From contig NZ_CP136920.1 of NCBI RefSeq assembly GCF_033100135.1, positions 1,116,001 through 1,180,000 of the forward strand: a DNA stretch of 64,000 nt. The letters run 5' to 3'. The notes below the pieces were generated by a model. That model did no database searches. It had not been told where the DNA came from and was given only the letters and a program-made list of their open reading frames with translations. The DNA is from Rubellicoccus peritrichatus (GTDB taxonomy: Bacteria > Verrucomicrobiota > Verrucomicrobiia > Opitutales > Cerasicoccaceae). Both the position numbers and the translations under genes were made by a program. The first letter of the stretch is position 1. Each line of letters starts with the position of its first letter. Of this stretch, positions 23,197 through 63,654 are shown piece after piece.

Positions 23197-23271
23197 TGGT
23201 GCCCCCGGCGGGAATCGAACCCACATTAACGGTTTAGGAAACCGCGGTTCTATCCATTGAACTACGGGGAC
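23197..23271 (-). tRNA. tRNA-Arg (anticodon CCU)
   Basis: The minus strand folds as a full cloverleaf with encoded CCA: acceptor GTCCCCG/CGGGGGC, D stem GTTC/GAAC, anticodon stem GCGGT/ACCGT around loop TTCCTAA (anticodon CCT), and T stem GTGGG/CCCGC with loop TTCGATT. Thirty-eight bases from its anticodon loop to its 5' end recur at 31841-31878, so this gene is the integration site of the adjoining element. Its present 5' half and upstream region would be those supplied by the element. Confidence 0.95.
23234..23271. repeat. Attachment site copy within tRNA-Arg (left)
   Basis: Thirty-eight bases identical to 31841-31878, covering the tRNA from the anticodon loop to its 5' end. It is the tRNA-proximal end of the element and keeps the tRNA gene intact. 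Confidence 0.92.
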
Positions 23272-23325
23272 AAGTCATTGATAATAAAGCATTTGCAGGT
23301 TTTATGCGGCTCTCAAAATTTAGGC

Positions 23326-23348
23326 TTGTAACCTGATTTTGTAACCCG
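23326..23348. repeat. Paired TTGTAACC motifs near left end
   Basis: Two TTGTAACC units start 13 bases apart (23326 and 23339), ending 14 bases before the integrase start. A 21-of-23 match in the same orientation is present at 31693-31715 near the other end. Arm-type integrase or excisionase binding sites, which may also let the integrase repress itself, are the likely reading. Confidence 0.6.
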
Positions 23349-23361
23349 CTAGATTCAATGC

Positions 23362-24438
23362 ATGCCCAAGACGAAACAAGCCGATTCAGGAACAGGCCAG
23401 TTTTCGAAAGTTGCAGAGAATCTTTACCGTTATAATGCATCTGGCGGTTACTATGCGTTGCTTAAAAGAGGCGGCAAGCAAATCCGAAAATCACTCAAGA
23501 CCCAAGACCGTAAATTGGCGGAGAGGCGTCTTGCCGATCTGAGAACCAAGGTAGATCGAATTGATACCCAAAAAGGGAAAACCAAAGTCGAATTCATGGA
23601 AGCTGCCGGAATGTGGTTGGATGTTATGCGGTCGAACTTGAAATCAAGTTCTCTTCTAAGACGAGAGACTAGTATAAACCAACTTAGACGACATTTTGGT
23701 CACTATTCAATTCGTGGAATTACTCGAATTGTCTGTGAAAATTGGGCTAAGACTAGAGCACCTCAGGTCGCTGCTTCCACATTCAACAATGAACGGGAGA
23801 CCCTCATTTCCATATTAGACTATTCAGAGAGGGAAGGGCACATTCTGGATAATCCAGCTAGGATTCTGAAAAGACGTCGCCAGGGCAAAATACAGCTACG
23901 CATTCCCACGCGTGAACAGTTTCAGTCATTAATGAAGACATTGCGATCAATGGATTCTCGTTACTGGCCAGCGGCTGACTTGGTGGAATTACTCGCTTAT
24001 TCAGGAATGCGTAAAGGCGAAGCAAATGAATTGAGATGGGAAGACATTGACTTTGATCGTGGTCAGTTCGTAGTCACTGGCGGAGAGACTGGGACTAAAA
24101 ATCACGATATACGTCATATTCCACTGTTTCCGGTGTTAAGTGGCTTTCTTGAGAGACTCCAGAATGACTATCAGGTTTGGAATGAAGAAGACTACGTGAT
24201 TCCAGTCAAAAACGCTAAAAAGGCGATTGATACAGCGTGTCAGAAAGCTGACTTACCCCACTTTAATCACCATAGTCTCAGACACTACTTTGTCAGTAAT
24301 GCCATAGAGAAGGGCATAGACTTCAAAGTCATTGCCCAATGGATCGGTCACAAAGACGGTGGTATTTTAGTGGCCCAAACCTACGGTCACTTAAGAGATA
24401 CTCACTCATTTGAAATGGCCAAACGCATGGACTCATGA
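23362..24438 (+). CDS. Tyrosine recombinase/integrase
   Basis: 358 residues: an N-terminal AP2-like arm-binding region, a core-binding SAM-like domain (about 75-165), and the catalytic domain with the full set of active-site residues, R217 (YSGMRKGEANEL), K246, H304 and R307 (HHSLRHYF), H330 (WIGH) and nucleophile Y341 (QTYGHL). It catalyses integration and excision at the tRNA-Arg site. It is the first gene inside the element, 90 bases from the attachment core, and its stop overlaps the next gene by four bases (ATGA). Confidence 0.95.
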   Translation: MPKTKQADSGTGQFSKVAENLYRYNASGGYYALLKRGGKQIRKSLKTQDRKLAERRLADLRTKVDRIDTQKGKTKVEFMEAAGMWLDVMRSNLKSSSLLRRETSINQLRRHFGHYSIRGITRIVCENWAKTRAPQVAASTFNNERETLISILDYSEREGHILDNPARILKRRRQGKIQLRIPTREQFQSLMKTLRSMDSRYWPAADLVELLAYSGMRKGEANELRWEDIDFDRGQFVVTGGETGTKNHDIRHIPLFPVLSGFLERLQNDYQVWNEEDYVIPVKNAKKAIDTACQKADLPHFNHHSLRHYFVSNAIEKGIDFKVIAQWIGHKDGGILVAQTYGHLRDTHSFEMAKRMDS

Positions 24439-25217
24439 AGCGTTCAGAGTCGGCATTAACCCTGTTCAAGAAATATAAAATCATCATTTCAGATGATGAC
24501 GATGTAGCCATTGAAGAAGTAAGAGAGATTGTATCTAGAAACTTAGAAACTAGGGGCTGGCTAAAGGAACGCTCGATCAGAGTTGGGGTTTGGATATCAA
24601 GTTCGATTTTCAGTGAAGATTCCACCGGTGAAATGGCTAGTATTATTGACACAGAAGTTCCAATCGTCACTGGCTGGAAGAAACTGGTTTCAGAAACTCT
24701 AGCAAAAACTATCTTCAGCAAAGCCAAGCATATCATTGACCATGAGAATGAAGCGTGTGTGAAAGGATTTCTCCTAGGCGCAATCGAAAATCTTTTTTAC
24801 GTCAGCGAAGCAATACATTCAGATGATGCATTAGCGGACAAAGAGCTTCTTAAGCTTCTAGATTTTAGGACATCAGAAGAAGCGCGAGCATTCAACAAAG
24901 ACAGAGAGGTTTTTCAAAGAGTCCTACAATGGACTGGTAGAAAAATAGAGTATTCCGATCCGGCTGTAACCAGAGAATTCGCAAGAGGATTTTTCGAGGG
25001 TGCAGCAGTGCTCAGTGAAGATGGTGAGCAACTCACCAACAGCACATCGGCGACGCGCATTTACATGCTACTTCTGCTGTTGGCAGATGAAATTGACGTG
25101 CTCAAAACAAGACGGCAGGTGTATTATTTATTCAAGATTATGCTAGAGGACGAACTTTTTCACTCAGAAGAATCATTTTGTGCAATATGCCGGAGAGTCC
25201 GATTGAAAGGACGATAG
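24435..25217 (+). CDS. Unknown protein coupled to the integrase
   Basis: 260 residues, starting inside the integrase stop (ATGA overlap), so the two are probably co-translated. I do not recognise the family. It is mostly helical and acidic at the N-terminus (ISDDDDVAIEEVREIV); two similar segments (CVKGFLLGAIENLFYVSEAI and REFARGFFEGAAVL) suggest an internal duplication. A late FCAICRR pair of Cys is visible but is not a full zinc motif. It may modulate recombination or element copy number; that is a guess from position only. Confidence 0.7.
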   Translation: MKRSESALTLFKKYKIIISDDDDVAIEEVREIVSRNLETRGWLKERSIRVGVWISSSIFSEDSTGEMASIIDTEVPIVTGWKKLVSETLAKTIFSKAKHIIDHENEACVKGFLLGAIENLFYVSEAIHSDDALADKELLKLLDFRTSEEARAFNKDREVFQRVLQWTGRKIEYSDPAVTREFARGFFEGAAVLSEDGEQLTNSTSATRIYMLLLLLADEIDVLKTRRQVYYLFKIMLEDELFHSEESFCAICRRVRLKGR

Positions 25218-25221
25218 AGAG

Positions 25222-25260
25222 CAGTCAATGTACATGGTAAATTTTCATGTACACTGACTG
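25222..25260. promoter_or_regulatory. Inverted repeat between the integrase unit and the HTH gene
   Basis: Two 15-base arms (25222-25236 and 25246-25260) match at 14 positions around a 9-base AT-rich loop. There is no T-tract, so it is a better operator candidate than a terminator. The HTH protein encoded at 25291 is a likely binder. It lies just downstream of the 24435-25217 stop. Confidence 0.55.
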
Positions 25261-25272
25261 ACTGCTATTTTT

Positions 25273-25290
25273 CGGGCTTAATAAGGCCCG
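25273..25290 (+). promoter_or_regulatory. Hairpin directly before the HTH start codon
   Basis: CGGGC and GCCCG pair around TTAATAAG and end at the base before the ATG at 25291, so the AAGG ribosome-binding candidate would be partly within the structure. Translational control of the excisionase-like gene is inferred. It could also act as a weak terminator for read-through from upstream. Confidence 0.4.
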
Positions 25291-25488
25291 ATGAAAACAA
25301 AAGCAAAGAAAAGAACATCCAAGGCACGGCTTGCCTACACGAGAGAAGAAGCTGCTGCAGTTCTTGGATTATCTCCGGTCAGCATTGACCGATTGACTAA
25401 ACGCGGATTACTCCGCCCGTCCCGTGCTACGCGACGTCCGTTGTATCCAATCACCGAGATCGAGCGTTTCCTCCGGGAAACGCGATAA
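25291..25488 (+). CDS. Small HTH protein, excisionase-like (MerR-type HTH_17)
   Basis: 65 residues. After a basic N-terminus the sequence LAYTREEAAAVLGLSPVSID followed by RLTKRGLLRPSR and a YPITEIERFL end is the winged HTH used by excisionases and small phage regulators. Proteins of this type bend DNA at attachment sites to favour excision, or control early genes. It lies between two inverted repeats upstream and the Rep gene 11 bases downstream. Excision and copy-number control are both possible. Confidence 0.85.
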   Translation: MKTKAKKRTSKARLAYTREEAAAVLGLSPVSIDRLTKRGLLRPSRATRRPLYPITEIERFLRETR

Positions 25489-25499
25489 GCAGGTAGATT

Positions 25500-26528
25500 G
25501 TGATGAATACAGATCCTTGTTTTTCCTTGCCCCGCCCCAAGCCAAATTTTGACGAAGCGCAAGGTGGAGCGCAGCCGAAGGCGAGCAATACCTTGTCGCG
25601 AGTCGTTAAAATTGATGGCTTGGCGGAGGCAAGGGACAAGATGAGAAATAGTGAAGGCGGCAAAGAGCAGATATGTACTTTAGGCCCTTTTTATCCCGAA
25701 TCGTGGTTTCACCCAATAGGTGCTTTAAAGTTGAAAAAGAAACTAATGGCAAAACTGCCTGATGTTTCTGGGTGTCTATTTCTCACTTTTACCGTGAACC
25801 CAAACGAATACGCCAATCCTGAGTCTGCTTATAATATTTCCCGCCAAAAACTTCGAAAACTTTTCTATTCACTTCGAAATGGGGTTAATTGGAACGGAAA
25901 ACACTTTAAATTGAATTCACCCTATTTTGTTAAAACAGAATTCCATAAAAACGGTTTTGCTCATTTTCATGTAGTTTTCCTAACAAAACGTTTTTTGCCG
26001 GGAATACTGCTCAATCAACTTTGGAAACTCGGAAGAACGAATGTAAAACGGATTTCAAATAAAGATTTCCACTATTTGTTGAAATACGTTGTTAAAAATA
26101 ATGATTTACCGGAATGGGTTAAAAACCGAAATCGGATTCGAATTATTCAATCTTCCCATGGTTTTTATTCAAAATTAGCTGAGATCGCTAAAAGGAATCT
26201 AATTCCAAAAGTATTCCCCAGAAAACGACGTAAAAAGAATACCATTGGGGAAAGAATAGAAATTTGGCGGCATAAGGCCGTATTCCGAAAAGGAAAAAGG
26301 GCTTGGACAGTCAATTTATCCAAACCCTTTTTCGAAATCCTTTCGGAAGTCATTCTACCACTCGCTCACGCAGATCAATACTTGGGCGAGTGGACAATAC
26401 AAATCCTAAATATAGGAGAAATTGAAAAATGGCTGAAAAATCAGCAAATGACAACGATGAACTCAGTATTCCCGAACCCGGTGCATACTTCAAGGGCATC
26501 ACCGTATCATCAACCTGCCGTCTGCTAA
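25500..26528 (+). CDS. HUH-family rolling-circle replication initiator
   Basis: 342 residues with the three Rep motifs in order: motif 1 LFLTFTVN (93-99), the HUH motif GFAHFHVVF with H155 and H157, and motif 3 FHYLLKYVV with Y192, K195 and Y196. Such proteins nick one strand at an origin and stay attached through Tyr, starting rolling-circle replication. The layout resembles Rep proteins of small phages and plasmids. The start at 25500 could be one codon later (second Met). Its last 100 bases overlap the next gene in another frame. I could not identify the nick site. Confidence 0.85.
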   Translation: MMNTDPCFSLPRPKPNFDEAQGGAQPKASNTLSRVVKIDGLAEARDKMRNSEGGKEQICTLGPFYPESWFHPIGALKLKKKLMAKLPDVSGCLFLTFTVNPNEYANPESAYNISRQKLRKLFYSLRNGVNWNGKHFKLNSPYFVKTEFHKNGFAHFHVVFLTKRFLPGILLNQLWKLGRTNVKRISNKDFHYLLKYVVKNNDLPEWVKNRNRIRIIQSSHGFYSKLAEIAKRNLIPKVFPRKRRKKNTIGERIEIWRHKAVFRKGKRAWTVNLSKPFFEILSEVILPLAHADQYLGEWTIQILNIGEIEKWLKNQQMTTMNSVFPNPVHTSRASPYHQPAVC

Positions 26529-26767
26529 ACAAGCGAGATGGCAGTGGTAAACTTGCGATTATCAGAAATGAGATTGCGACCCAACCCGGAATGATTGTTT
26601 GGGAAGAGTTCCTCGACCCAGAACGCAACCCAGGACTAAAGATAAATGGACATGATGTTCTAGAATGGCCCCGGCTTGAGACGCTCAAACCTGTGATAAT
26701 CAAAGCCGAGCGGTTCAAAGTGGTCAATGAAACGCTCCACATCTCAAACGCAACCGTGGTTAGCTAA
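26429..26767 (+). CDS. Small protein after Rep, possible ssDNA-binding protein
   Basis: 112 residues in another frame from Rep, with a good Shine-Dalgarno sequence (AGGAGA, about 10 bases before the ATG at 26429). The composition is beta-rich (YFKGITVSSTCRLL; GKLAIIRNEIA; PVIIKAERFKVVNETLHI), which fits an OB-fold or single-strand DNA-binding accessory, as often encoded after Rep in rolling-circle replicons. I recognise no specific family, and the function is inferred. It ends 35 bases before a strong terminator, closing the replication unit. Confidence 0.65.
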   Translation: MAEKSANDNDELSIPEPGAYFKGITVSSTCRLLNKRDGSGKLAIIRNEIATQPGMIVWEEFLDPERNPGLKINGHDVLEWPRLETLKPVIIKAERFKVVNETLHISNATVVS

Positions 26768-26802
26768 TGAACGCTAGAGCATTCACGCAAAAGGATTGGC
26801 GG

Positions 26803-26832
26803 GGAGTCGCGCGAGAGCGCGACTCCTTTTTC
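26803..26832 (+). terminator. Intrinsic terminator after the replication genes
   Basis: A perfect 10-base GC-rich stem (26803-26812 with 26817-26826), a GAGA loop and a following run of five T. It separates the replication unit from the SIR2-type cargo, which therefore needs its own promoter in 26833-26977. Confidence 0.92.
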
Positions 26833-26977
26833 CTTGTTTACATTCCCAATAACTGTCCAATGAAAGGCATCTACTTGTAAGATTTGTTTGCAGATACTAT
26901 CTGAAAATGCTTGAGACTTTAGTAGTATGCACTAGCAAAAATCAGCTATTTATCAGAATTAAATTAATTCATCAAAA

Positions 26978-27862
26978 ATGACGGCAAAACTGACAGAGAC
27001 AAATCAATCAGTTGCTGACCGTCTCTCAGAATTCATGAAGCTAAAGCCAGTAGCGATGCTAGGAGCGGGTGTTTCTGCAGACTGCTTCCCCAAAAGCTGG
27101 GATGAGTTGATTCAAATCCTTTCTCAAAAAATGGGCATTCAGCCTAAAAGCACCACAAATCTAAATAGGGCCCAAGAACTCAAAGATGCTGACGAGACTA
27201 AATATACCGAAGCCCTAAGAGAGATTTTCACTAAGAAACCCGAGGAACTTCCAGCAACGTTACTCAAACTAACTCAGCTACCCTTTAAGCACTATGTTAC
27301 CCATAATTTTGACAGATCCATTTCGGAGGCTCGAGGCCATAACACTGGTGTTGCTCCTCAAGAGCAATTCTACCCTAAAATAGCCCTGGCAGATTGTACA
27401 GATGGAAGTGTAACGTATGCTCATGGGGCTTTTAAGCCTGATGGCGAAATCGAAGACATAGATTTCATTGTTCTACATACCAAAGCATATATTAAGGCCT
27501 ACAAAAACAATGGGAGTTATAGCTGTTTTGCTTATGACTTCTTTAGGTTCGTGTTCAAGAACGAACACATTTTGTTTGTCGGAATTGGGCTTAATGACGA
27601 AGCCATGCAGACCCTACTAGAGGAATCTAGTAGATCAAATAGCCAGAAAATTATCCTATTTCCCAAAGGAAGATATACTGGTGAGCACAAAGTAATTAAA
27701 GACCTACATAAAAGAGCTTATAATATTGAAGTTCTATTTTACGATGCAGTAGACAGCGATCATTCTGGCCTGACGAGCATCCTCGAGGTGGTCCACAATC
27801 GTATAGTTCTTGAGCCCAAAATCGCTCAAAACACACTGCAGGAGGGCGGAATATGGGAGTAG
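26978..27862 (+). CDS. SIR2-family NADase-like protein (putative defence effector)
   Basis: 294 residues forming a SIR2-like domain: GAGVSADC (29-36) as the NAD-binding loop, THNFD with the catalytic Asn at N110, the catalytic His at H149 (YAHG), and GIGLND (202-207) as the C-terminal Rossmann motif. Defence SIR2 proteins deplete NAD+ to abort infection. Unlike DSR1 or DSR2, this chain ends soon after the SIR2 domain, leaving sensing to a partner. Its last ten bases overlap the next gene (ATG at 27853), which has a strong GGAGG before it, so the two are coupled. NADase activity is inferred from family and residues. Confidence 0.85.
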   Translation: MTAKLTETNQSVADRLSEFMKLKPVAMLGAGVSADCFPKSWDELIQILSQKMGIQPKSTTNLNRAQELKDADETKYTEALREIFTKKPEELPATLLKLTQLPFKHYVTHNFDRSISEARGHNTGVAPQEQFYPKIALADCTDGSVTYAHGAFKPDGEIEDIDFIVLHTKAYIKAYKNNGSYSCFAYDFFRFVFKNEHILFVGIGLNDEAMQTLLEESSRSNSQKIILFPKGRYTGEHKVIKDLHKRAYNIEVLFYDAVDSDHSGLTSILEVVHNRIVLEPKIAQNTLQEGGIWE

Positions 27863-30735
27863 ATAATAAAACTATCAAGAAAGTGCTCTTAGAGTTAGAA
27901 GACATTGCAAATAAGCCGAGTGTTACTAAATCAGAATTTGTAGTAATATGCATTAGGAATGAGATTCTAGGACGTTTCTTCTTAAACAGAGCTTTAAGCC
28001 CAGAATGGAATTCTATTTTACGAACACAAGAAGACATTGATCTATTTGGTGAAGATCTACAACAGGTATATATTAGCTATCTACTTCGAGTATTTGAGGA
28101 TTCACCACAAGACATCAGTGACTCGTTAAAAGACAACATCGCTCAAATTACACGATTCAACCTTTACCGCATTTTGAGTTTTGCTACAGAGCAAGATTTA
28201 GAGACTGCGATTCAATTTATCGATATTGCTAAAAGACTATCCGATGAGCCACAGGACATCTATGGCGCGACGCTTTGTGAATACTTCGTCACCATCACAA
28301 AGAGAGACGATTTTTGGCCACAAGCGAAAGAATTACTTTCTTGGATACTCCATTTCAAACTATCAGATAGAGAAGGCTATGCAACATATGAGCCAAGGTT
28401 AGACAATCACTCATTGGGGGAGTTCATAAGAAATGGACTGAAAGGAGTAACTCAACATAAACCCATTGAAACTTTTGATCTAGTCCTTCAGTCTCTAGAC
28501 AACTTAATTAGGCTAAAGGCTGCTCAGGGCAACTACGATCCAGAGCATGATGAAGTTTATTGTCGAAGAGTGGAGGCATATACTTCTGCATACGCCTCCT
28601 CTGAAGAGCTTATTGTAGTTGGAGTTACAAATGTGGGCAGTCATATTCTAAATGACTTTCAGGATTTCGCTCCTGAAGTAATACAGCATTTAGATGAACT
28701 CGACTGGAATATAACAAAGCGTATACGCGCCTACCTTTATTCTCTACACCCTAAAATTTTTGCAGATGCAATAAAGGAATGGATATCCAACAACATAATG
28801 AGAATCGCTCAGGGTAATCTTTCGCGTGAAGAAAGGTTCATGATTGATCGAGCAAGCTCGTCACTAAAAGAAGCACTTTTAAGCGAATCAGACTCGAAAG
28901 AGCTATATGATGCTGTCAGAGCTGAACCTGACTCACGTAACTATCTGGAATATCTTCGAATGCATTTCCCAGACATTAATCACGCCGAGCGCATCCTCAA
29001 TTGGAAGAATGAGCGCAGACAGCAAACCTTAAGTTTATTTAGAAATTCCCTGTATGATTTGCCAAAAGCATACTTAGCCGAACTCACAGACAAACTAGGA
29101 CCTGCTAAAACAGTTTGGGATAAAGATGAGGAAATGGTTTCAGAGGCCCAGATCCACACTGTGGCGAATCGAAGCCCAATATCTGAAACTGACCTTTCAG
29201 CTCTTTCTAATGTAGATATGATTGACTACCTAAACGCATGGAATAGGAGTGGTCGTAATACTGATGAGCCATATGTGGATATTAATAAGAGTGCACTTGC
29301 TAGCACATTTCAAAAAGTAGTTGAATCGACGCCTGAGAGATTTGTTCCTGATTGTTTCAATTGGAAAAGAATTGAAAATCCAATATACCACGGAGCTGGA
29401 ATTAACGCAGTAAAATCGCTCTATGAGAATGACAAGGAGATTCTACTAGATAAATGGATGTCTCTTTTCGGGTGGATGCTAGATGAACAATATCAGACAT
29501 TCAACGAATCAGGTGAAAAAATCAAAAGTGAAGAAATGCAAGGCACGGATCCAGTAAGTCATTATGCCATCTTGGATCTAATCAAAACTCTAATTGATGC
29601 GGATAATAACACACAAATCGAACTTCGTCCGAAGATCGCATTTTTGCTAAATAGGCTTTGTACGACAAAGCAATCGAGACTGGAGTCTTACACCCTAGAG
29701 ACAAGCGACCCAACAGGTGTATATGGTACGGCGATTAACACAATACGAAGTAGAGCATTGGAAGTATTCATATGTTTCTCAATCTGGGTCCATAAAAGTA
29801 AAAATGTGGGGCAGGATGAGCGACCAGCCGATGAATGCAGCAAAGAATTTCGTGAAGTTCTTAATTACAGAATTCATAAAGGACCTATTCTCACACCACC
29901 CGAACTATCAATTCTAGCAGTTGAACTACAAAACCTTAGTTATCTAAATGCTGATTGGCTAAGAGGCTGGATACAGAATATTTTTCCAGAAGATGATCAT
30001 GTTTGGTCCAAAGTCTTTGCGAGTCACATTCTATACAGTAGATGCTTAGGTTGGCTTTTTCATGATACTAAACTGCATTATGAGCGTGCATGTAGGAATC
30101 TTGATCTATTTCGCTATAAAGATCGCGACAGTGAACAAATCGTAGCACAAATTGGAACACATATATTTCTGTTCTATCTATGGGAAAAATTTGCTCTTCC
30201 TACAGAAGAAGCAACAGACAAAAACCTAATAGAACTTTTCTACAGGAATACCACCAATGAGGAAAAAAGAAGGACTTTTTCTAAGATAATGCACATGCTC
30301 CGGACAGACGAAAAACTCAAGGATGAACTCGTTAAACGTAGCATTGGATTTATAGAATATCGTTTTAATTGTGGGAATTCCGACGAATTTGAGGGTTTCG
30401 ATCAAATACTTAACACCAAAAACTTTGATAAAGCTTGGGTTCTAAAAAAATACGCAGAAATACTCGACCATAAATCAACAGACGGAACACTTCGTGTATA
30501 CGAACTAGATCATTTTTTCGGTGCATTTGAAACCGAACCAGAGGCAACTGCTCTTTGTTTTGAAAAAGTTACCAAACGCGCAGCAACTCAAGACCACTTT
30601 TACCTTCACAATGAAGATGCTAAAAAACTCCTAAAACTGTTTCTAGAATCTGATAACCCCGTAATAGTCAATCTAGGTGAGAAAGCACAGGCTAATCTCC
30701 TCATGGCTGAGATGTTTGAATATCTTGCGCTTTAA
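27853..30735 (+). CDS. Large unknown protein, probable partner of the SIR2 protein
   Basis: 960 residues, translationally coupled to the SIR2 gene. I recognise no family. It looks almost wholly alpha-helical, with recurrent amphipathic helices suggestive of an ARM/HEAT-like solenoid; there is no Walker A motif, no nuclease motif and no transmembrane segment. An aromatic-rich part lies near residues 690-760 (WLRGWIQNIF, ILYSRCLGWLF, FLFYLWEKF). By analogy with the helical portion of DSR1/DSR2 or DUF4020 proteins it could sense phage proteins and regulate the SIR2 subunit, but no homology was tested. The gene is very AT-rich. Confidence 0.8.
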   Translation: MGVDNKTIKKVLLELEDIANKPSVTKSEFVVICIRNEILGRFFLNRALSPEWNSILRTQEDIDLFGEDLQQVYISYLLRVFEDSPQDISDSLKDNIAQITRFNLYRILSFATEQDLETAIQFIDIAKRLSDEPQDIYGATLCEYFVTITKRDDFWPQAKELLSWILHFKLSDREGYATYEPRLDNHSLGEFIRNGLKGVTQHKPIETFDLVLQSLDNLIRLKAAQGNYDPEHDEVYCRRVEAYTSAYASSEELIVVGVTNVGSHILNDFQDFAPEVIQHLDELDWNITKRIRAYLYSLHPKIFADAIKEWISNNIMRIAQGNLSREERFMIDRASSSLKEALLSESDSKELYDAVRAEPDSRNYLEYLRMHFPDINHAERILNWKNERRQQTLSLFRNSLYDLPKAYLAELTDKLGPAKTVWDKDEEMVSEAQIHTVANRSPISETDLSALSNVDMIDYLNAWNRSGRNTDEPYVDINKSALASTFQKVVESTPERFVPDCFNWKRIENPIYHGAGINAVKSLYENDKEILLDKWMSLFGWMLDEQYQTFNESGEKIKSEEMQGTDPVSHYAILDLIKTLIDADNNTQIELRPKIAFLLNRLCTTKQSRLESYTLETSDPTGVYGTAINTIRSRALEVFICFSIWVHKSKNVGQDERPADECSKEFREVLNYRIHKGPILTPPELSILAVELQNLSYLNADWLRGWIQNIFPEDDHVWSKVFASHILYSRCLGWLFHDTKLHYERACRNLDLFRYKDRDSEQIVAQIGTHIFLFYLWEKFALPTEEATDKNLIELFYRNTTNEEKRRTFSKIMHMLRTDEKLKDELVKRSIGFIEYRFNCGNSDEFEGFDQILNTKNFDKAWVLKKYAEILDHKSTDGTLRVYELDHFFGAFETEPEATALCFEKVTKRAATQDHFYLHNEDAKKLLKLFLESDNPVIVNLGEKAQANLLMAEMFEYLAL

Positions 30736-30738
30736 CCC

Positions 30739-31527
30739 ATGAATCAAGGGCAATACATGCGCAGACTCACTGAGGCAATTGGTTGCCCAATTGATTGGTC
30801 CAAACGAGGTTTCTCTACTGAATTCATTCGGCTCATACATTTATTATGGGCAAAGACTGTATATGATAATCAGTCCGACAACGAAATATCTCTTTATATG
30901 CAAGAGCGGCATGATAGTTTTGGTATGTGTATCTATGAACTAGAAATTGTAGAAGAAAATACAAAATTATGGTATGATCAAGCACAGAGACTATACTCTG
31001 AGAAGGTAGCTTTTTTCAAGTCATTTAGGCATTTAGACGAGAAAGAGCACGATAAGCATTGGCTCAGGAATGTAATTAGAAATGAAAATGTCATTACTAA
31101 CACTAAGCGTAAACCTGCGAAATATTATTTTGATACGACCTTGAAGAGTGTCAAGTTTGCGTTACTTTCTGCGATTGAGAAAAATTTTTTTAACTTAATA
31201 TGTGAGCATCCTCCAAAATACTTGTACCATAAATTTAATCAGCCAATAGGAGCGTCAAAAGGGGTTGAAACAAGCAGCACTATTTTTGACATTGATTACT
31301 CAAACTTCACTGTTCATTCATACCCAATACCCGATTCCGAAACTCCGACAATCATACAAGACACAAAAATGGTTGATGAATTCAATGCATTTTGTGATGC
31401 TTTTACATTTAGTGACAGCCCCACAATAGATGACCCAATAGAGATGGATTTGAAATTCTGCGAATCCGATTGTTGCATAAAATGGAGAAATATGCCGGGA
31501 TTCAACTTAGGCACAAGGGACTTGTAG
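30739..31527 (+). CDS. Unknown protein, third gene of the SIR2 cargo
   Basis: 262 residues beginning four bases after the large gene's stop, so it belongs to the same transcript. No family is recognised. The N-terminal half is helical (RLTEAIGCPIDWSKRGFSTEF; ERHDSFGMCIYELEI; HDKHWLRNVIRNENV), the rest mixed with a Cys-rich end (FCESDCCIKW). It has no signal peptide or membrane helix. It could be a third subunit or a regulator. It is followed by 313 bases without a gene up to the right attachment site. Confidence 0.72.
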   Translation: MNQGQYMRRLTEAIGCPIDWSKRGFSTEFIRLIHLLWAKTVYDNQSDNEISLYMQERHDSFGMCIYELEIVEENTKLWYDQAQRLYSEKVAFFKSFRHLDEKEHDKHWLRNVIRNENVITNTKRKPAKYYFDTTLKSVKFALLSAIEKNFFNLICEHPPKYLYHKFNQPIGASKGVETSSTIFDIDYSNFTVHSYPIPDSETPTIIQDTKMVDEFNAFCDAFTFSDSPTIDDPIEMDLKFCESDCCIKWRNMPGFNLGTRDL

Positions 31528-31840
31528 ATAGATGAACAACTCACAACATCTCGGGTCAGTCATTATATAGGCTTGCTTTACGATATTCTGACAAAATATC
31601 AAACAAGATTGTGCAAATCAAAGGTCGATCGCAATATTGAGCTATAAAATAAATCGGGAAAGAACCGAATCCACTTTACTCGCGGTTCGCTATTGTAACC
31701 CAATTTTGTAACCCGGGTGCAAAAAATAGGCGTATTTGAGATTACTTGAGATAAGATTGAGATTTCGTAAATATCTATGAACCAATATCTTGAATACGTC
31801 TGAGTGTTCTAGATGACTTCAGGGAAACGCCTTTTTTGCG
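31528..31840. other. Right-end region of the element without a gene
   Basis: No supported gene. It contains the TTGTAACC pair at 31693-31715 and a short AACGC/GCGTT hairpin with a T-rich loop (about 31826-31842) that abuts the attachment core. The content fits a recombination-end region. Confidence 0.5.
31693..31715. repeat. Paired TTGTAACC motifs near right end
   Basis: Two TTGTAACC units start 13 bases apart (31693 and 31706), matching 23326-23348 at 21 of 23 positions and in the same orientation. The distance to the core is about 127 bases here against 55 on the left. Confidence 0.6.
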
Positions 31841-31878
31841 TTAGGAAACCGCGGTTCTATCCATTGAACTACGGGGAC
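31841..31878. repeat. Displaced tRNA-Arg 5' half / right attachment site
   Basis: A 38-base copy of the tRNA-Arg segment from anticodon loop to 5' end, identical to 23234-23271. It is not followed by the rest of a tRNA. It marks the far end of the element and is presumably the original 5' half, with its native promoter beyond 31878. Confidence 0.92.
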
Positions 31879-31985
31879 TCACCTTGGATAGGTTGGCTAA
31901 TATGTGCTTTGGGGGCAGAGCGGCAAGCAAATCCGTCAATCGTTGGGAATGTTCTAGCGAGTGAGCTCGTATCTTGCCTGCGTGA

Positions 31986-59312: not shown

Positions 59313-59912
59313 TCATGGCTCAATTGACTTGAAAGGATCAACTCGATTTTGCCTATATTCTTGCATTTCTTCCCCAGTCATAAAATCTAATGGCGTGTAG
59401 GGAATGGAGAAATAGCCATTCTCACGCAGTAGGATACCTTCAACAAAATCACGACCTATGGCCTCTTGACGATCTGGGCGCGTGCGGCTGAAAGCAATAC
59501 TCGCTTCGATGCTATGTCTTGTTTTTTGAGATAGCTCTTTAAAGATTTTTCCATCGTGATCAAAATAGAAATCGTCCCCCGACGTTCTTATGTCAACAGC
59601 ATCTCCTTCGATAATATAAATAAAAAATACAGCATCTCCTCTTGTTAGCGCTACGTTCAGGGGTTTGGAGGATTCCCGAATTAAGTCTATGTAAGCATCC
59701 ATCTCACTGTCTGCGACTATTAAGTTTAAGCTTGAAATAGCAAGCTCTGGCGCAGGGGCATCCATATCACTTATTGACCAAGTATTAGGTAAAATAATAG
59801 AGCCTTTTGAGTCCAAATAAGCCGCAGGTCGAATTAGAATTGTTGCAGATTGGCTGTGCAAAGATGAAAAACACAAACACAATAACAATATATATATAGT
59901 ACTATAATTCAT
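59313..59912 (-). CDS. Exported protein downstream of the first RHS gene
   Basis: 199 residues from the ATG at 59912, with MNYSTIYILLLCLCFSSLHSQSA as a signal peptide; it overlaps the RHS stop by 11 bases. No domain is recognised. The position matches an RHS-linked immunity or accessory gene, but export argues against a standard cytoplasmic immunity protein. Its sequence is unlike the partner of the second RHS gene. Confidence 0.65.
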   Translation of the reverse strand: MNYSTIYILLLCLCFSSLHSQSATILIRPAAYLDSKGSIILPNTWSISDMDAPAPELAISSLNLIVADSEMDAYIDLIRESSKPLNVALTRGDAVFFIYIIEGDAVDIRTSGDDFYFDHDGKIFKELSQKTRHSIEASIAFSRTRPDRQEAIGRDFVEGILLRENGYFSIPYTPLDFMTGEEMQEYRQNRVDPFKSIEP

Positions 59913-61335
59913 GAATTTCAAAGCCCCAATGACCACCTATGTTTAAAAAATGCCCAACTCCGGCACTATCTACCGAAAAAAGATAGCTCCATGCTTTCCA
60001 AGTTACAGGGTTATCTTTTGTTGCACTTGTAACAAAACGGCTTGGACGATCACTAAGAGTATTCGAGGGCTGTTCATTTGCTCTCGAATAGTAAGGTGCA
60101 TTGTTGCTAGGCCCATCCAAAACGAGGCCAGCTGGACTGTCATTTGTTCCTACGTTTGAATCTCTGATTTGCACCCAACGAAGATTACCATTTAAAATTG
60201 ATGTAGTGGCACTTGAATTGATGACGACTCCTCCTAAAGGAACACCATTTTCTCCAGTCTCGGTAGATGGCGAAAAATTTGAAGTATTAATCTGGGCGAC
60301 ATTACTAAAGCTAGTAGATAACTGTAAGTTGTAGCTCTGAATTAAATTCTGATGCGCTTGCGGCATTGAAGTAATCTGGCCGCCTGACATTGCTTTTACT
60401 TCATAATCAGCTCCCTGATAAGGCACTGTTAGATTACCAACTTCAGTCCATAGTCCCAGCGGATCCAGCCCACTTGTTGGCACAGGTGCGTAATAGTGCT
60501 GGTTCGATCCATCGGGGAATCCGGATGGGTCGTAAGTCATCCAGCGGTTGACGTCGGTGCGGTAATTACGGTAAGGGAAAACGTAGGCGCCGAGGTCGTT
60601 ATCATAGGGTTTGCCTGTAAAGCGTGGTTGGTCTAGGCCGGAGCGGAGCTCGACATCCAGGCTTTCACCAAAGGGTGTTACATTGCCGGCGGTATAGCTG
60701 GCGTTTGCGCCATCACGCGAGTAGCTGGCCAGAGTATTGCCGAGGTAATCGTTCTCCATATAATTGACTTTATTACCAGAGGCATCAAAGGCGACAATTG
60801 GCACACCACCGGAGATGTGAGGCTCGTTGATGTAACGTTCGTTACCACGAGCGACCAGAGCCAGGCCATCCCAAGCCCATTTTTCCATGCCGCCCTTGGT
60901 TTCCTTGGCTACTAACATACCTGATGGAGAATAGTGAAAGCGTGCTTTGTGTCCATTCCTGTTTACGGAGATAACCTTGTCGAGATAGCCGTATTGGTAT
61001 TCGGCGATGGTAGTGTCACCCATGCGTTCACGTATGAGGCGACCAGCACCGTCATAGTCAAATTCTGTAATCCCCGAGGGATCCATCCGGTTGACGAGCT
61101 GGTTGGCCTTGTCGTAGGACATGCGAGTGCTTTGACCACCAACAGTTTTTTCAATCAAATTGCCGGAGGCATCGTAGGAATAAGTCTGAGAGAGATCAGG
61201 ACGATCTGTAACTTTGACAGCAGACAAACGTCCAAGCGCGTCGTATTCGTAGTTTTCTTCAATAGTGAGCCCTTGAAGGGTCAAAGCAGTGCATATTCCG
61301 CCGACGGTGGTGTATAGTGTTTTCCGTAGGTTCAT
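59902..61335 (-). CDS. Short RHS-repeat protein, copy 1
   Basis: 477 residues. A signal-like N-terminus (MNLRKTLYTTVGGICTALTLQ) is followed by YD repeats (YEYDALGRLSAV; YSYDASGNLIEK; FDYDGAGRLIRE) and the RHS core end (RFTGKPYDNDLGAYVFPYRNYRTDVNRWMTYDPSGF … GLDPLGLW). After that, a variable tip of about 180 residues differs from copy 2. The core is much shorter than usual RHS shells, so toxin encapsulation is doubtful. The tip has no recognised enzyme motif. Confidence 0.88.
   Translation of the reverse strand: MNLRKTLYTTVGGICTALTLQGLTIEENYEYDALGRLSAVKVTDRPDLSQTYSYDASGNLIEKTVGGQSTRMSYDKANQLVNRMDPSGITEFDYDGAGRLIRERMGDTTIAEYQYGYLDKVISVNRNGHKARFHYSPSGMLVAKETKGGMEKWAWDGLALVARGNERYINEPHISGGVPIVAFDASGNKVNYMENDYLGNTLASYSRDGANASYTAGNVTPFGESLDVELRSGLDQPRFTGKPYDNDLGAYVFPYRNYRTDVNRWMTYDPSGFPDGSNQHYYAPVPTSGLDPLGLWTEVGNLTVPYQGADYEVKAMSGGQITSMPQAHQNLIQSYNLQLSTSFSNVAQINTSNFSPSTETGENGVPLGGVVINSSATTSILNGNLRWVQIRDSNVGTNDSPAGLVLDGPSNNAPYYSRANEQPSNTLSDRPSRFVTSATKDNPVTWKAWSYLFSVDSAGVGHFLNIGGHWGFEIHEL
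60450..61335. repeat. RHS core duplication, copy 1
   Basis: About 885 bases encoding the N-terminus to the DPxG motif, closely matching 62770-63654 without indels. Only the tips downstream differ, the sign of recombination or duplication at the core boundary. Confidence 0.8.
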
Positions 61336-61617
61336 GATGATGGATTTATTTGTTTGATTCAGTTAGATTGGGGCAGTGATTGGAATATCAAAAATAAATG
61401 TAACTTCCTTTGTCCAGATAAAAATAGTATCTGGATTGGGATTTGAAATGATTGAAACATTGAAATCCCCTTTCTAGGGGTTTATTGCATTATGATCCCT
61501 CAAATACCAGGGCTAGCGGACATTTAAGGATTCCACTTTTCTTCATCATTAAGCGTCATTAAGCGATTTGCAACTAAGTTAGCAGTCTTTGCCAAGCAAT
61601 CTGAATGTTCATTCACC
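61336..61617. other. Upstream region of RHS copy 1
   Basis: No gene supported. It includes a perfect 7-base inverted repeat TCCAGAT/ATCTGGA (61413-61435). Short parts resemble the region upstream of copy 2, so the duplication extended into the promoter region. Confidence 0.4.
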
Positions 61618-61812
61618 CTAGGGTATTGTGCTGACCACATGATATCCTTGATCAGGGATTTGTATGGCCCGGCGATTGAGCCGGCCGCTTTCGTCCGATA
61701 GGTAACAAATTGCTTTTATCTCTTCATCCTTGGGACCGCGACTAATCATTGAAATAGGACAATCCTGATTGCTATCGCTATGCCCGCAATGCTGGTGCCC
61801 ACCGATTCTCAA
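61618..61812 (-). pseudogene. Decayed 3' end of a YD-repeat gene
   Basis: The minus strand encodes SRGPKDEEIKAICYLSDESGRLNRRAIQIPD, closely similar to the gene end at 63853-64000. The original stop after IPD is gone and the 5' part is lost. It marks the boundary of the ancestral tandem unit. Confidence 0.7.
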
Positions 61813-61879
61813 AGAGCACGTTTAGACCATTCACTTTGAGACTATGATTTTCCTACTCTACAGATGTCTATTTAGTGCG

Positions 61880-62404
61880 CTATTCAGTTCTGTAAGCAAC
61901 AATATAGATGGGAACTGATTCAGTTTCTGTACTCTCATTTGTTAGGTTAGACAAAGCAACCAGTTGTCCGCGTGCAATATTGACGCTTGATTCAGTTTCT
62001 GTGCTTTGCCCTCCACTATTTTCAGCGCTGCGAATTTTTCCTTTAAAATTAAGACTTTGTTTGTTCATTTCAGTATATCCATCGACATGAATTGAGGCTG
62101 TTTGTGATGATGCAGTAACATCGATCTTTCCCGTGATGTTTTGCACAATGGATACCTGAACTTTCATGACTCCCTTTTCTTCGGTAATGACTCCGAAGAT
62201 TAATTTGTCTTTTGCAATATTCAGAGGTTTTGATACCTCATTGATAATGGCTGTCTTTAATGACTCGTCTAAATTAGCTATCTTTTTAGAGTAATCTTCT
62301 ATTAATGCTTGCAAATCTGAATTGACTTCACCTTTTAGGTTCCCGGCTATCATCGCCAGGATTGTCAATTGTAGTGATAATAAATATTTTATGTGAAACT
62401 TCAT
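61880..62404 (-). CDS. Exported protein downstream of the second RHS gene
   Basis: 174 residues with a signal peptide (MKFHIKYLLSLQLTILAMIAG), overlapping the RHS stop by four bases (ATGA). Helical in the first half, strand-rich in the second (SQTASIHVDGYTEMNKQSLNF); no domain known. It holds the same position as the 59313-59912 gene after copy 1 but the sequence is unrelated, so the pair tip and partner seem to change together. Confidence 0.68.
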   Translation of the reverse strand: MKFHIKYLLSLQLTILAMIAGNLKGEVNSDLQALIEDYSKKIANLDESLKTAIINEVSKPLNIAKDKLIFGVITEEKGVMKVQVSIVQNITGKIDVTASSQTASIHVDGYTEMNKQSLNFKGKIRSAENSGGQSTETESSVNIARGQLVALSNLTNESTETESVPIYIVAYRTE

Positions 62405-63654
62405 TTTTCTACCTTGTAAGTGCCATTGGTGGCATCATTGAAGGCTTTTGTTGCAATCTGCAGTGATTTGACGCTTGAGGAGAATGTATAATCCCCTTCA
62501 TTACGAGCTGCAGTTAAAAATCCTGTTCCATTTTTAGTTGTAGTGTTTCCGTTACTTGGAACCGTAACTGTACTCGTGGTTCTAAACTTATCGCTTCCTG
62601 ATTGAATCACGAATTCAAACTGTGCAAAAAAGCTTCCAGTGTCTCCTTGATCACGAGTGACAGTTATTGTGTAACCGCCGATGTGCTGAACATTAATGCT
62701 GGATGCGCCGTTCAGCTCCAGTGTTTTCTTGTCCGGGGCACCAACCGAAGTGGAGGCGGAAACTGTCCATTTACCAGTGGGATCAATTTCGATCGTCGGA
62801 ATCGGTGCGTAATAATGCTGATTAGGTCCGTCAGGAAACCCTGATGGGTCGTATGTCATCCAGCGCGCGACATCGGTGCGGTAGTTGCGATAGGGAAAAA
62901 CATAGGCACCGAGGTCTTTGTCGTAGGGCTTGCCAGTGAAGCGCGGTTGGTCGAGACCGGATCGGAGCTCAGCATCAAGACTTTCGCCAAAGGGGGTTAC
63001 ATTACCTGCAGTGTAGGTGGCATTGGCGCCATCACGTGCGTAGGTGGCCAGAGTATTGCCAAGGTAATCGTTTTCCATGTAATTGACTTCGCTGCCGGAA
63101 GTATCGAACGCAACTACAGGCACACCACCGGAGATATGGGGCTCATTGATGTAGCGCTCGTTACCACGTGCGGCGAGAGCCATCCCATCCCAAGCCCATT
63201 TTTCCATGCCGCCTTTGGTTTCCTTGGCTACTAACATACCTGATGGAGAATAGTGAAAGCGTGCTTCGTGTCCATTTCTGTTTACGGAGACGACTTTGTC
63301 GAGATAACCGTACTGGTATTCGACTATGGTGGTATTGCCGATACGTTCACGGATTAGGCGACCAGCGCCATCATAGTCAAATTCTGTGATCCCGGCGGCA
63401 TCTATTCGACTGACGAGCTGGTTGGCCTTGTCATAGGTCATGCGAGTAGATTGACTACCAATGGCTTTCTCGATCAAATTGCCGGAAGCGTCATAAGCGT
63501 AGGCCTGAGAGAGGTCAGGACGGCCTGCCACTTTTACTGCAGACAAACGCCCAAGCGCATCATATTCGTAGTTTTCCTCAATGGTGATGCCCTGGAGTGT
63601 CAAGGCGCCGCAAATTCCGCCGATAGCTATGCTAAGTGTTTTCCGTAGGTTCAT
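62401..63654 (-). CDS. Short RHS-repeat protein, copy 2
   Basis: 417 residues, with the core nearly identical to copy 1 as far as IDPTGKW. The tip (about 120 residues, TVSASTSVGAPDKKTLELNG…) is unlike that of copy 1 and rich in Thr and Ser. The 3' end is coupled to the small exported gene by ATGA. As with copy 1, the short length argues against a classical shell. Confidence 0.88.
   Translation of the reverse strand: MNLRKTLSIAIGGICGALTLQGITIEENYEYDALGRLSAVKVAGRPDLSQAYAYDASGNLIEKAIGSQSTRMTYDKANQLVSRIDAAGITEFDYDGAGRLIRERIGNTTIVEYQYGYLDKVVSVNRNGHEARFHYSPSGMLVAKETKGGMEKWAWDGMALAARGNERYINEPHISGGVPVVAFDTSGSEVNYMENDYLGNTLATYARDGANATYTAGNVTPFGESLDAELRSGLDQPRFTGKPYDKDLGAYVFPYRNYRTDVARWMTYDPSGFPDGPNQHYYAPIPTIEIDPTGKWTVSASTSVGAPDKKTLELNGASSINVQHIGGYTITVTRDQGDTGSFFAQFEFVIQSGSDKFRTTSTVTVPSNGNTTTKNGTGFLTAARNEGDYTFSSSVKSLQIATKAFNDATNGTYKVEK
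62770..63654. repeat. RHS core duplication, copy 2
   Basis: Matches 60450-61335 along the full core with no length change, judged from identical spacing of shared landmarks. The divergence begins at the DPxG motif. Confidence 0.8.

Follow-up and report, generated by a model that had tools for sequence, protein, structure and literature searches.

The small elements RS1 and TLC-phi of Vibrio carry no morphogenesis genes, a trait shared by the element of Rubellicoccus peritrichatus described here, and RS1 codes for a single-stranded DNA (ssDNA)-binding protein. Both have been described as satellite filamentous phages, in an account that gives them an HUH initiator of the filamentous-phage type (PMC4439123). 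Among the islands in tRNA genes (tDNA) of the Islander collection, a displaced 5' fragment was reported in 159 of 3919, a minority, and these have a tDNA, the fragment and an integrase between the two (PMC4383910). Integration by archaeal pTN3-like integrases takes place in the 5' half of a tRNA gene, which serves as the attachment site attB, and puts expression of the rebuilt tRNA under the integrase promoter; according to the same source, integrases seldom use this half in bacteria (PMC8371274). We analysed a window of 64 kb, that is, the whole stretch of 64,000 nucleotides (nt) from contig NZ_CP136920.1 to which the coordinates below refer, and conclude that it quite probably contains an 8.6-kb integrative rolling-circle element. 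This element is also small and has a filamentous-phage-type initiator, but unlike RS1 and TLC-phi it has its own tyrosine integrase and Xis, a tRNA target, defence-like cargo and no demonstrated helper. It shares its layout with the Islander 5'-fragment islands and differs from them in that an entire integrase clade holds the geometry and that arm sites are conserved. With the pTN3-like integrases, which are archaeal and reside on other elements, it has in common the 5' half of the tRNA gene as attB, a likeness of geometry.

The single tRNA gene found by ARAGORN in the window is tRNA-Arg(CCT), and the element, at 23234-31878, is flanked by identical 38-bp copies of its 5' half (Table 1). Because the repeat corresponds to nt 1-38 of the intact tRNA, the element is 8.6 kb long. 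A first-pass annotation had confined it to 23362-26767, which covers about 40% of it; the repeats place the ends at 23234 and 31878. The replication and integration genes listed in that annotation are all there, while the defence-like cargo and the tRNA attachment (att) sites had been overlooked. The start of int and the 5' end of the tRNA are 90 bp apart, and the parts required of a tDNA integrative element in the Islander sense are present, namely, an intact tDNA, a fragment on the same strand and on the matching side, and an integrase between them. A tRNA search of the host genome returned this gene, its displaced 38-nt copy and one further match. Since that match is only 78% identical, the gene in the window may be the host's sole tRNA-Arg(CCT) gene. 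A sigma-70 scan of the gap between the tRNA and int gave one site on the plus strand (0.6 expected) and none in the direction of the tRNA. Separately, a 16-bp exact match was seen between int (23471-23492) and the right chromosomal flank (31920-31941).

The tRNA geometry was examined in the relatives of the integrase (Int), which are present at E 1e-30 or better in 15 of 132 related genomes. The comparison covers 27 loci at or above 42% identity, of which one is the window, 21 came from earlier searches and 5 were added by a later search beyond the order. A divergent tRNA with its 5' end toward int lies directly upstream of the gene in 25 of the 27, and the targets include tRNAs for Arg, Met, Thr, Lys and Leu. 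The exceptions are L077 and locus L063, in which the contig starts 153 bp upstream of int. A second att copy was recovered at 17 of the 25 tRNA-bearing loci (with one mismatch in L143) and is absent from the available sequence at the other eight (L035, L058, L059, L060, L062, L065, L067 and L144). At all 17 the att block runs from tRNA position -5 to 1 through position 37-41, which is the 3' end of the anticodon loop. The five later loci are out-of-sample, and among them the tRNA was found in 5/5 and the 5'-half duplicate in 4/5. The loci compared show that this Int clade consistently keeps the 5'-half tRNA geometry, which is rare in bacteria. More distant Int relatives (31-33% identity) are mixed: the tRNA is divergent at L073 and L074, int lies past the tRNA 3' end at L072 and L075, and no att repeat was found at any of these four. 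Relatives of the element's replication protein (Rep) that have other integrases lie at tRNA 3' ends (L033, L034, L039, L040, L042, L046, L047 and L148). Two side observations concern tRNA-Arg fragments. At L077:900-1023 int adjoins a 38-nt 5' fragment with no 3' half, possibly a tandem insertion, and at G007:C4:63012-100824 (L117, L118) a 35-nt 5' fragment lies about 38 kb from the tRNA, possibly marking a larger island, and is adjoined by a different integrase (28% identity).

Inside both ends of the element are tandem copies of GGT(T/G)(A/T)CA spaced by about 13 nt. On the int side of 13 elements they precede the tRNA by 53-77 nt, with a pair in 11 and at least one copy in all 13. On the other side they are 126-152 nt inside the far fragment, with a pair in 9 and at least one copy in 12, L031 being without a far site. 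The window holds exactly two such pairs, both at the element ends, and dinucleotide shuffles gave a pair in 0-1 of 300. The same variant (GGTTACA, GGTGACA or GGTTTCA) tends to occur at both ends of an element, as expected if one protein binds both. These paired inner repeats look like integrase arm sites.

Of the genes proposed earlier for 23362-26767, Pfam supports int, the excisionase-like gene and the HUH rep, and PHROGs agrees on int and the excisionase-like gene; the small post-Rep gene is present as well. In the Rep alignment the two motif-I threonines, H155-x-H157 and Y192-xxx-Y196 are invariant in 15/15, and Rep is thus an HUH initiator with the catalytic tyrosines of a rolling-circle replicon. 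A sequence search of solved structures gave Rep no convincing match. Neither ORF2 nor ORF5 (ORF, open reading frame) has a convincing Pfam match. ORF2 relatives share a C-terminal ICxxIGLxxxxRGRPxK, and its model (pLDDT 51.6) was too poor for a fold search. The ORF5 model is an all-beta oligonucleotide-binding (OB) domain whose best PDB matches are RPA and SSB domains (Z up to 7.7); these matches support an OB fold and not by themselves a function. Searching solved structures with the ORF5 sequence gave LexA-like matches only, at E 0.04 or worse, and a fold search of a viral library gave nothing decisive. The gap between ORF2 and xis (25220-25266) has a long inverted repeat with a T-run, a terminator or operator by its appearance, with no obvious counterpart in relatives.

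Directly 3' of orf5 a hairpin is followed by the 27-nt motif CCTTGTTTACATNNNCAATAACTGTCC, and this arrangement is found at 19 of 21 loci with a close Rep. The motif is present at 1 of 13 distant Rep loci. Three loci with Rep fragments only (L068, L069 and L071), none with the motif, were left out of both sets; L064, which has no Rep, and the decayed L116, which no longer has one, bear the motif and stand outside the 21. With as many as 3 mismatches allowed, 0.03 occurrences of the motif are expected in the window; it occurs there once, and once in the host genome. The pattern is present in 10 of the 132 genomes and the reversed pattern, used as control, in none. Folded singly, 19 of 20 hairpin copies exceed their shuffled versions in stability (z -3.7 to -7.7), the other being L064 (-1.1). 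Pair types vary along the stem, and covariation is only suggested. CTTG and AATAAC also occur in the phiX174 origin. The HUH initiator of CTX-phi is described as nicking between G and T in an origin hairpin (PMC4439123). Judged by its conservation, the hairpin with the motif is probably the double-strand origin. Among other loci with the pattern, L130 is a relic, and L131 has the hairpin and a tRNA-Arg, yet searches of it gave neither a match to any window protein nor an att duplicate. Locus L064 (L064:9490, minus strand) is an int-bearing tRNA-Leu element without this Rep that has kept the motif with a weak hairpin, and it could be a relic or non-autonomous. The matches in G054 and G113 were put down to chance, having neither hairpin nor Int relative, and so was L119, the sole match in viral contigs, which lies inside open reading frames with no hairpin seen.

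Table 1. Features of the element and its tRNA target (window coordinates; aa, amino acids)
Feature	Position	Strand	Basis
Intact tRNA-Arg(CCT), integration target	23197..23271	-	ARAGORN; 5' end toward element
att repeat, int side, tRNA nt 1-38	23234..23271	-	38-bp perfect direct repeat
Paired arm-type site, int side, GGGTTACA ... GGTTACA, 13-nt period	23326..23348	-	Repeat and comparison of relatives
Tyrosine integrase, 358 aa	23362..24438	+	PF00589 1.8e-22; phrog_1 1.3e-56; alignment
ORF2, 260 aa, core gene without assigned function	24435..25217	+	Alignment of relatives; low-confidence model
Xis-like HTH_17 protein, 65 aa	25291..25488	+	PF12728 5.5e-8; phrog_66 3.2e-8
HUH Rep, 342 aa, H155-F-H157 and Y192xxxY196	25500..26528	+	PF23343 (REP_ORF2-G2P) 7.1e-13; alignment
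ORF5, 112 aa, predicted OB fold, candidate ssDNA-binding protein, overlaps rep end	26429..26767	+	Model pLDDT 88; fold searches
G+C-rich hairpin of candidate double-strand origin	26802..26827	+	Folding; stem comparison
Conserved motif CCTTGTTTACATNNNCAATAACTGTCC, candidate nick region	26832..26858	+	Conservation in relatives
SIR2-family protein, 294 aa	26978..27862	+	PF13289 6.1e-10; PADLOC LmuA 5.1e-14, ThsA 2.1e-10
960-aa partner of SIR2	27853..30735	+	Pair conserved in L098 and L100
262-aa cargo protein without family (ORF8)	30739..31527	+	ORF call; no match in four libraries
Paired arm-type site, far side	31693..31715	-	Repeat and comparison of relatives
att repeat, far side, displaced 5' half of tRNA-Arg(CCT)	31841..31878	-	38-bp perfect direct repeat

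We annotated 13 complete elements, 10 of them with this Rep. The pairing of Rep and Int, for which a search of related genomes had been suggested, recurs there: Int, Xis, Rep and the post-Rep gene are found together in related elements with att ends. These comparisons show the element to be a member of a family of small elements that would integrate and excise, with relatives mostly in Opitutales-type Verrucomicrobia. No published description of this family was found in the open-licence papers searched. None of the eight element proteins matched a MOB/relaxase, capsid or conjugation family in Pfam, NCBIfam, PHROGs or PADLOC, as had been claimed for the shorter interval. The element thus has no relaxase/MOB gene that would make it an integrative and mobilizable element. 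Actinomycete integrative and conjugative elements (pSAM2-like) are defined by an FtsK-like transfer protein, and Pfam matched none among the eight. The pri gene of phage-inducible chromosomal islands is described as a primase-type replication gene (PMC10111431); here Rep is of the HUH type and neither Pfam nor PHROGs gave a primase match, unlike such islands and P4-type satellites.

The cargo begins with a SIR2-family gene, which matches the PADLOC profiles LmuA, ThsA and Dsr1 (5e-14 to 5e-5) and has the SIR2 domain of SIR2 defence systems (PF13289 6.1e-10). It has the SIR2_2 domain in common with those three proteins and differs from them in being a separate 294-aa gene with a 960-aa partner named by none of the four libraries. 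At L098 and L100 a SIR2 gene stands immediately before a relative of the 960-aa protein. L097 and L099 have fusions, in which another N-terminal region is joined to a relative of the C-terminal part of that protein. The two genes are probably a phage-defence pair, judging from homology and pairing, and may work as toxin and sensor. Other family members, of which chosen proteins were scanned (20 in Pfam, 10 in PADLOC), carry a type IIG system and a SIR2 protein (L031), a NotI-like endonuclease and methylase (L032), type III restriction with DndB/DpdB (L080), GmrSD-type and HEPN proteins (L083), FRG (L086), PemK (L078) and PIN (L029). Outside the element, two adjacent similar RHS/YD-repeat-like ORFs of 477 and 417 aa were noticed by eye at 59902-63654.

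Relatives of Rep were found in 17 of the 132 genomes, and a species-wide genome collection gave 15 loci; almost all are in metagenome-assembled genomes of Opitutales or other Verrucomicrobia, and one such assembly, labelled Candidatus Obscuribacter, is possibly mis-binned. A Zot-family gene lies 1-4 kb from 8 of the 13 distant Rep loci, and these are therefore inovirus-type proviruses. The 18 element Reps cluster together in the Rep tree (92/98), and all 8 Zot-linked Reps are outside this cluster and adjacent to it. The host has a separate inovirus-type provirus at G000:C1:3463055-3468041 (L028), with a Rep of 38% identity, a Zot-family protein and small ORFs between. Given this grouping of the Reps with those of inoviruses, and the provirus in the host, the element would act either as an integrative plasmid or as an inovirus satellite that has no virion genes.

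The first alternative, on which we are evenly divided, is a plain integrative plasmid, a multicopy circle moved by conjugation machinery in trans or by transformation. The element has Int, Xis, Rep and the origin with no virion gene, and the same integrase clade also occurs with the plasmid-type replication protein Rep_1 (PF01446; L061:11116-13089). On the Rep tree the integrase type (int5 label) needs at least 5 changes; therefore, modules have been exchanged, and integrase and Rep were swapped independently. Against this, there is no relaxase and no free plasmid relative: searches of phages and plasmids with Rep gave two weak Microviridae matches and one weak plasmid match (27% identity over 32% of the query).

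It is doubtful, although well worth considering, that the element is an inovirus satellite, the replication half of a filamentous phage (Rep and ssDNA-binding protein) packaged and spread by a co-resident inovirus like RS1 and TLC-phi. The initiator is related to inovirus Reps, as the Zot-linked distant relatives, the neighbouring positions in the tree and the host's own Zot/Rep provirus at 3.46 Mb show. But no Zot/pI assembly ATPase is found among the eight element proteins, and the host's only Zot match is 2.3 Mb away. The origin motif is not in the host inovirus-type locus, nor in 12 of the 13 distant Rep loci. Zot was found in 10 of the 132 relatives and close Reps in 7, of which 4 have no Zot match; the 3 genomes with both all belong to the family of the host, and Zot is present in 7 of the 10 genomes of that family. 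The overlap fits this family background and thus shows no helper association. The Rep pattern gave 58 matches in 2.9 million viral contigs and no confirmed relative, and elements of the CTX-phi type are described as integrating via host Xer (PMC4439123) whereas here the element has its own Int. The element and the inovirus-type locus of the host share an 18-bp exact match, which lies inside ORF7 and was dismissed as chance.

A decayed inovirus or island relic that is no longer mobile seems unlikely. Decayed relatives do exist (L116, L130 and L066 with a split int), but here all eight genes are open, the catalytic residues of Rep and Int are retained and the 38-bp repeats are identical. An HUH transposon (IS91/IS200-like) beside an unrelated integrase can hardly be credited: Rep is a two-tyrosine HUH nuclease, but Pfam places it in a phage/virus replication-initiator family (PF23343) and in no Y1/Y2 transposase family, so the homology to a transposase that was to overturn the earlier proposal is not seen, and the ends are tRNA att sites and not those of an insertion sequence.

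Several observations weigh against an integrative rolling-circle element with a defence cargo. No circular contig and no attP-like junction were found among the sequences searched, and the synteny search, in which the closest genomes belong to other genera, gave no empty site. L078 and L148 have a close Rep and no origin match, and RNAalifold on the origin sequence alignment gave 0 consensus pairs. The best Z for ORF5 is below the level trusted by the fold-search tool. Next to the SIR2 pairs of L098 and L100 there is no relative of ORF8, and the defence role comes from homology. The gene set for integration and replication is nevertheless well supported, and excision, replication, transfer and defence are what we infer from it.

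We propose that Int, acting on the paired arm sites at both ends and on the core at the tRNA anticodon loop, would recombine a circular form of the integrative rolling-circle element with the tRNA gene. The element would supply its own 5' tRNA half, the tRNA staying whole and its native upstream region being displaced by 8.6 kb. Xis would direct excision. Rep would then nick the circle at the hairpin/CCTTG-TTT origin 3' of ORF5 for rolling-circle replication by means of its two tyrosines, and ORF5 may coat the single strand. The cargo would include the SIR2 protein with its 960-aa partner, a probable phage-defence pair, and transfer between cells would depend on external means, that is, a helper virus, foreign conjugation machinery or DNA uptake.

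A bolder proposal, which we think rather improbable, is that an unnamed family of virion-less, inovirus-derived satellites of Verrucomicrobia spreads anti-phage systems in the particles of helper inoviruses, and that its entry on the 5' side causes an essential tRNA to be transcribed from element DNA and makes the host dependent on the element for the expression level of that tRNA. The att cores, arm sites, Rep, origin and Xis provide a defined set of parts for small mobile elements in a phylum with few descriptions of such DNA, and they connect replication genes of the inovirus type with the spread of restriction and SIR2-type defence genes, which may be a route by which immunity is shared.

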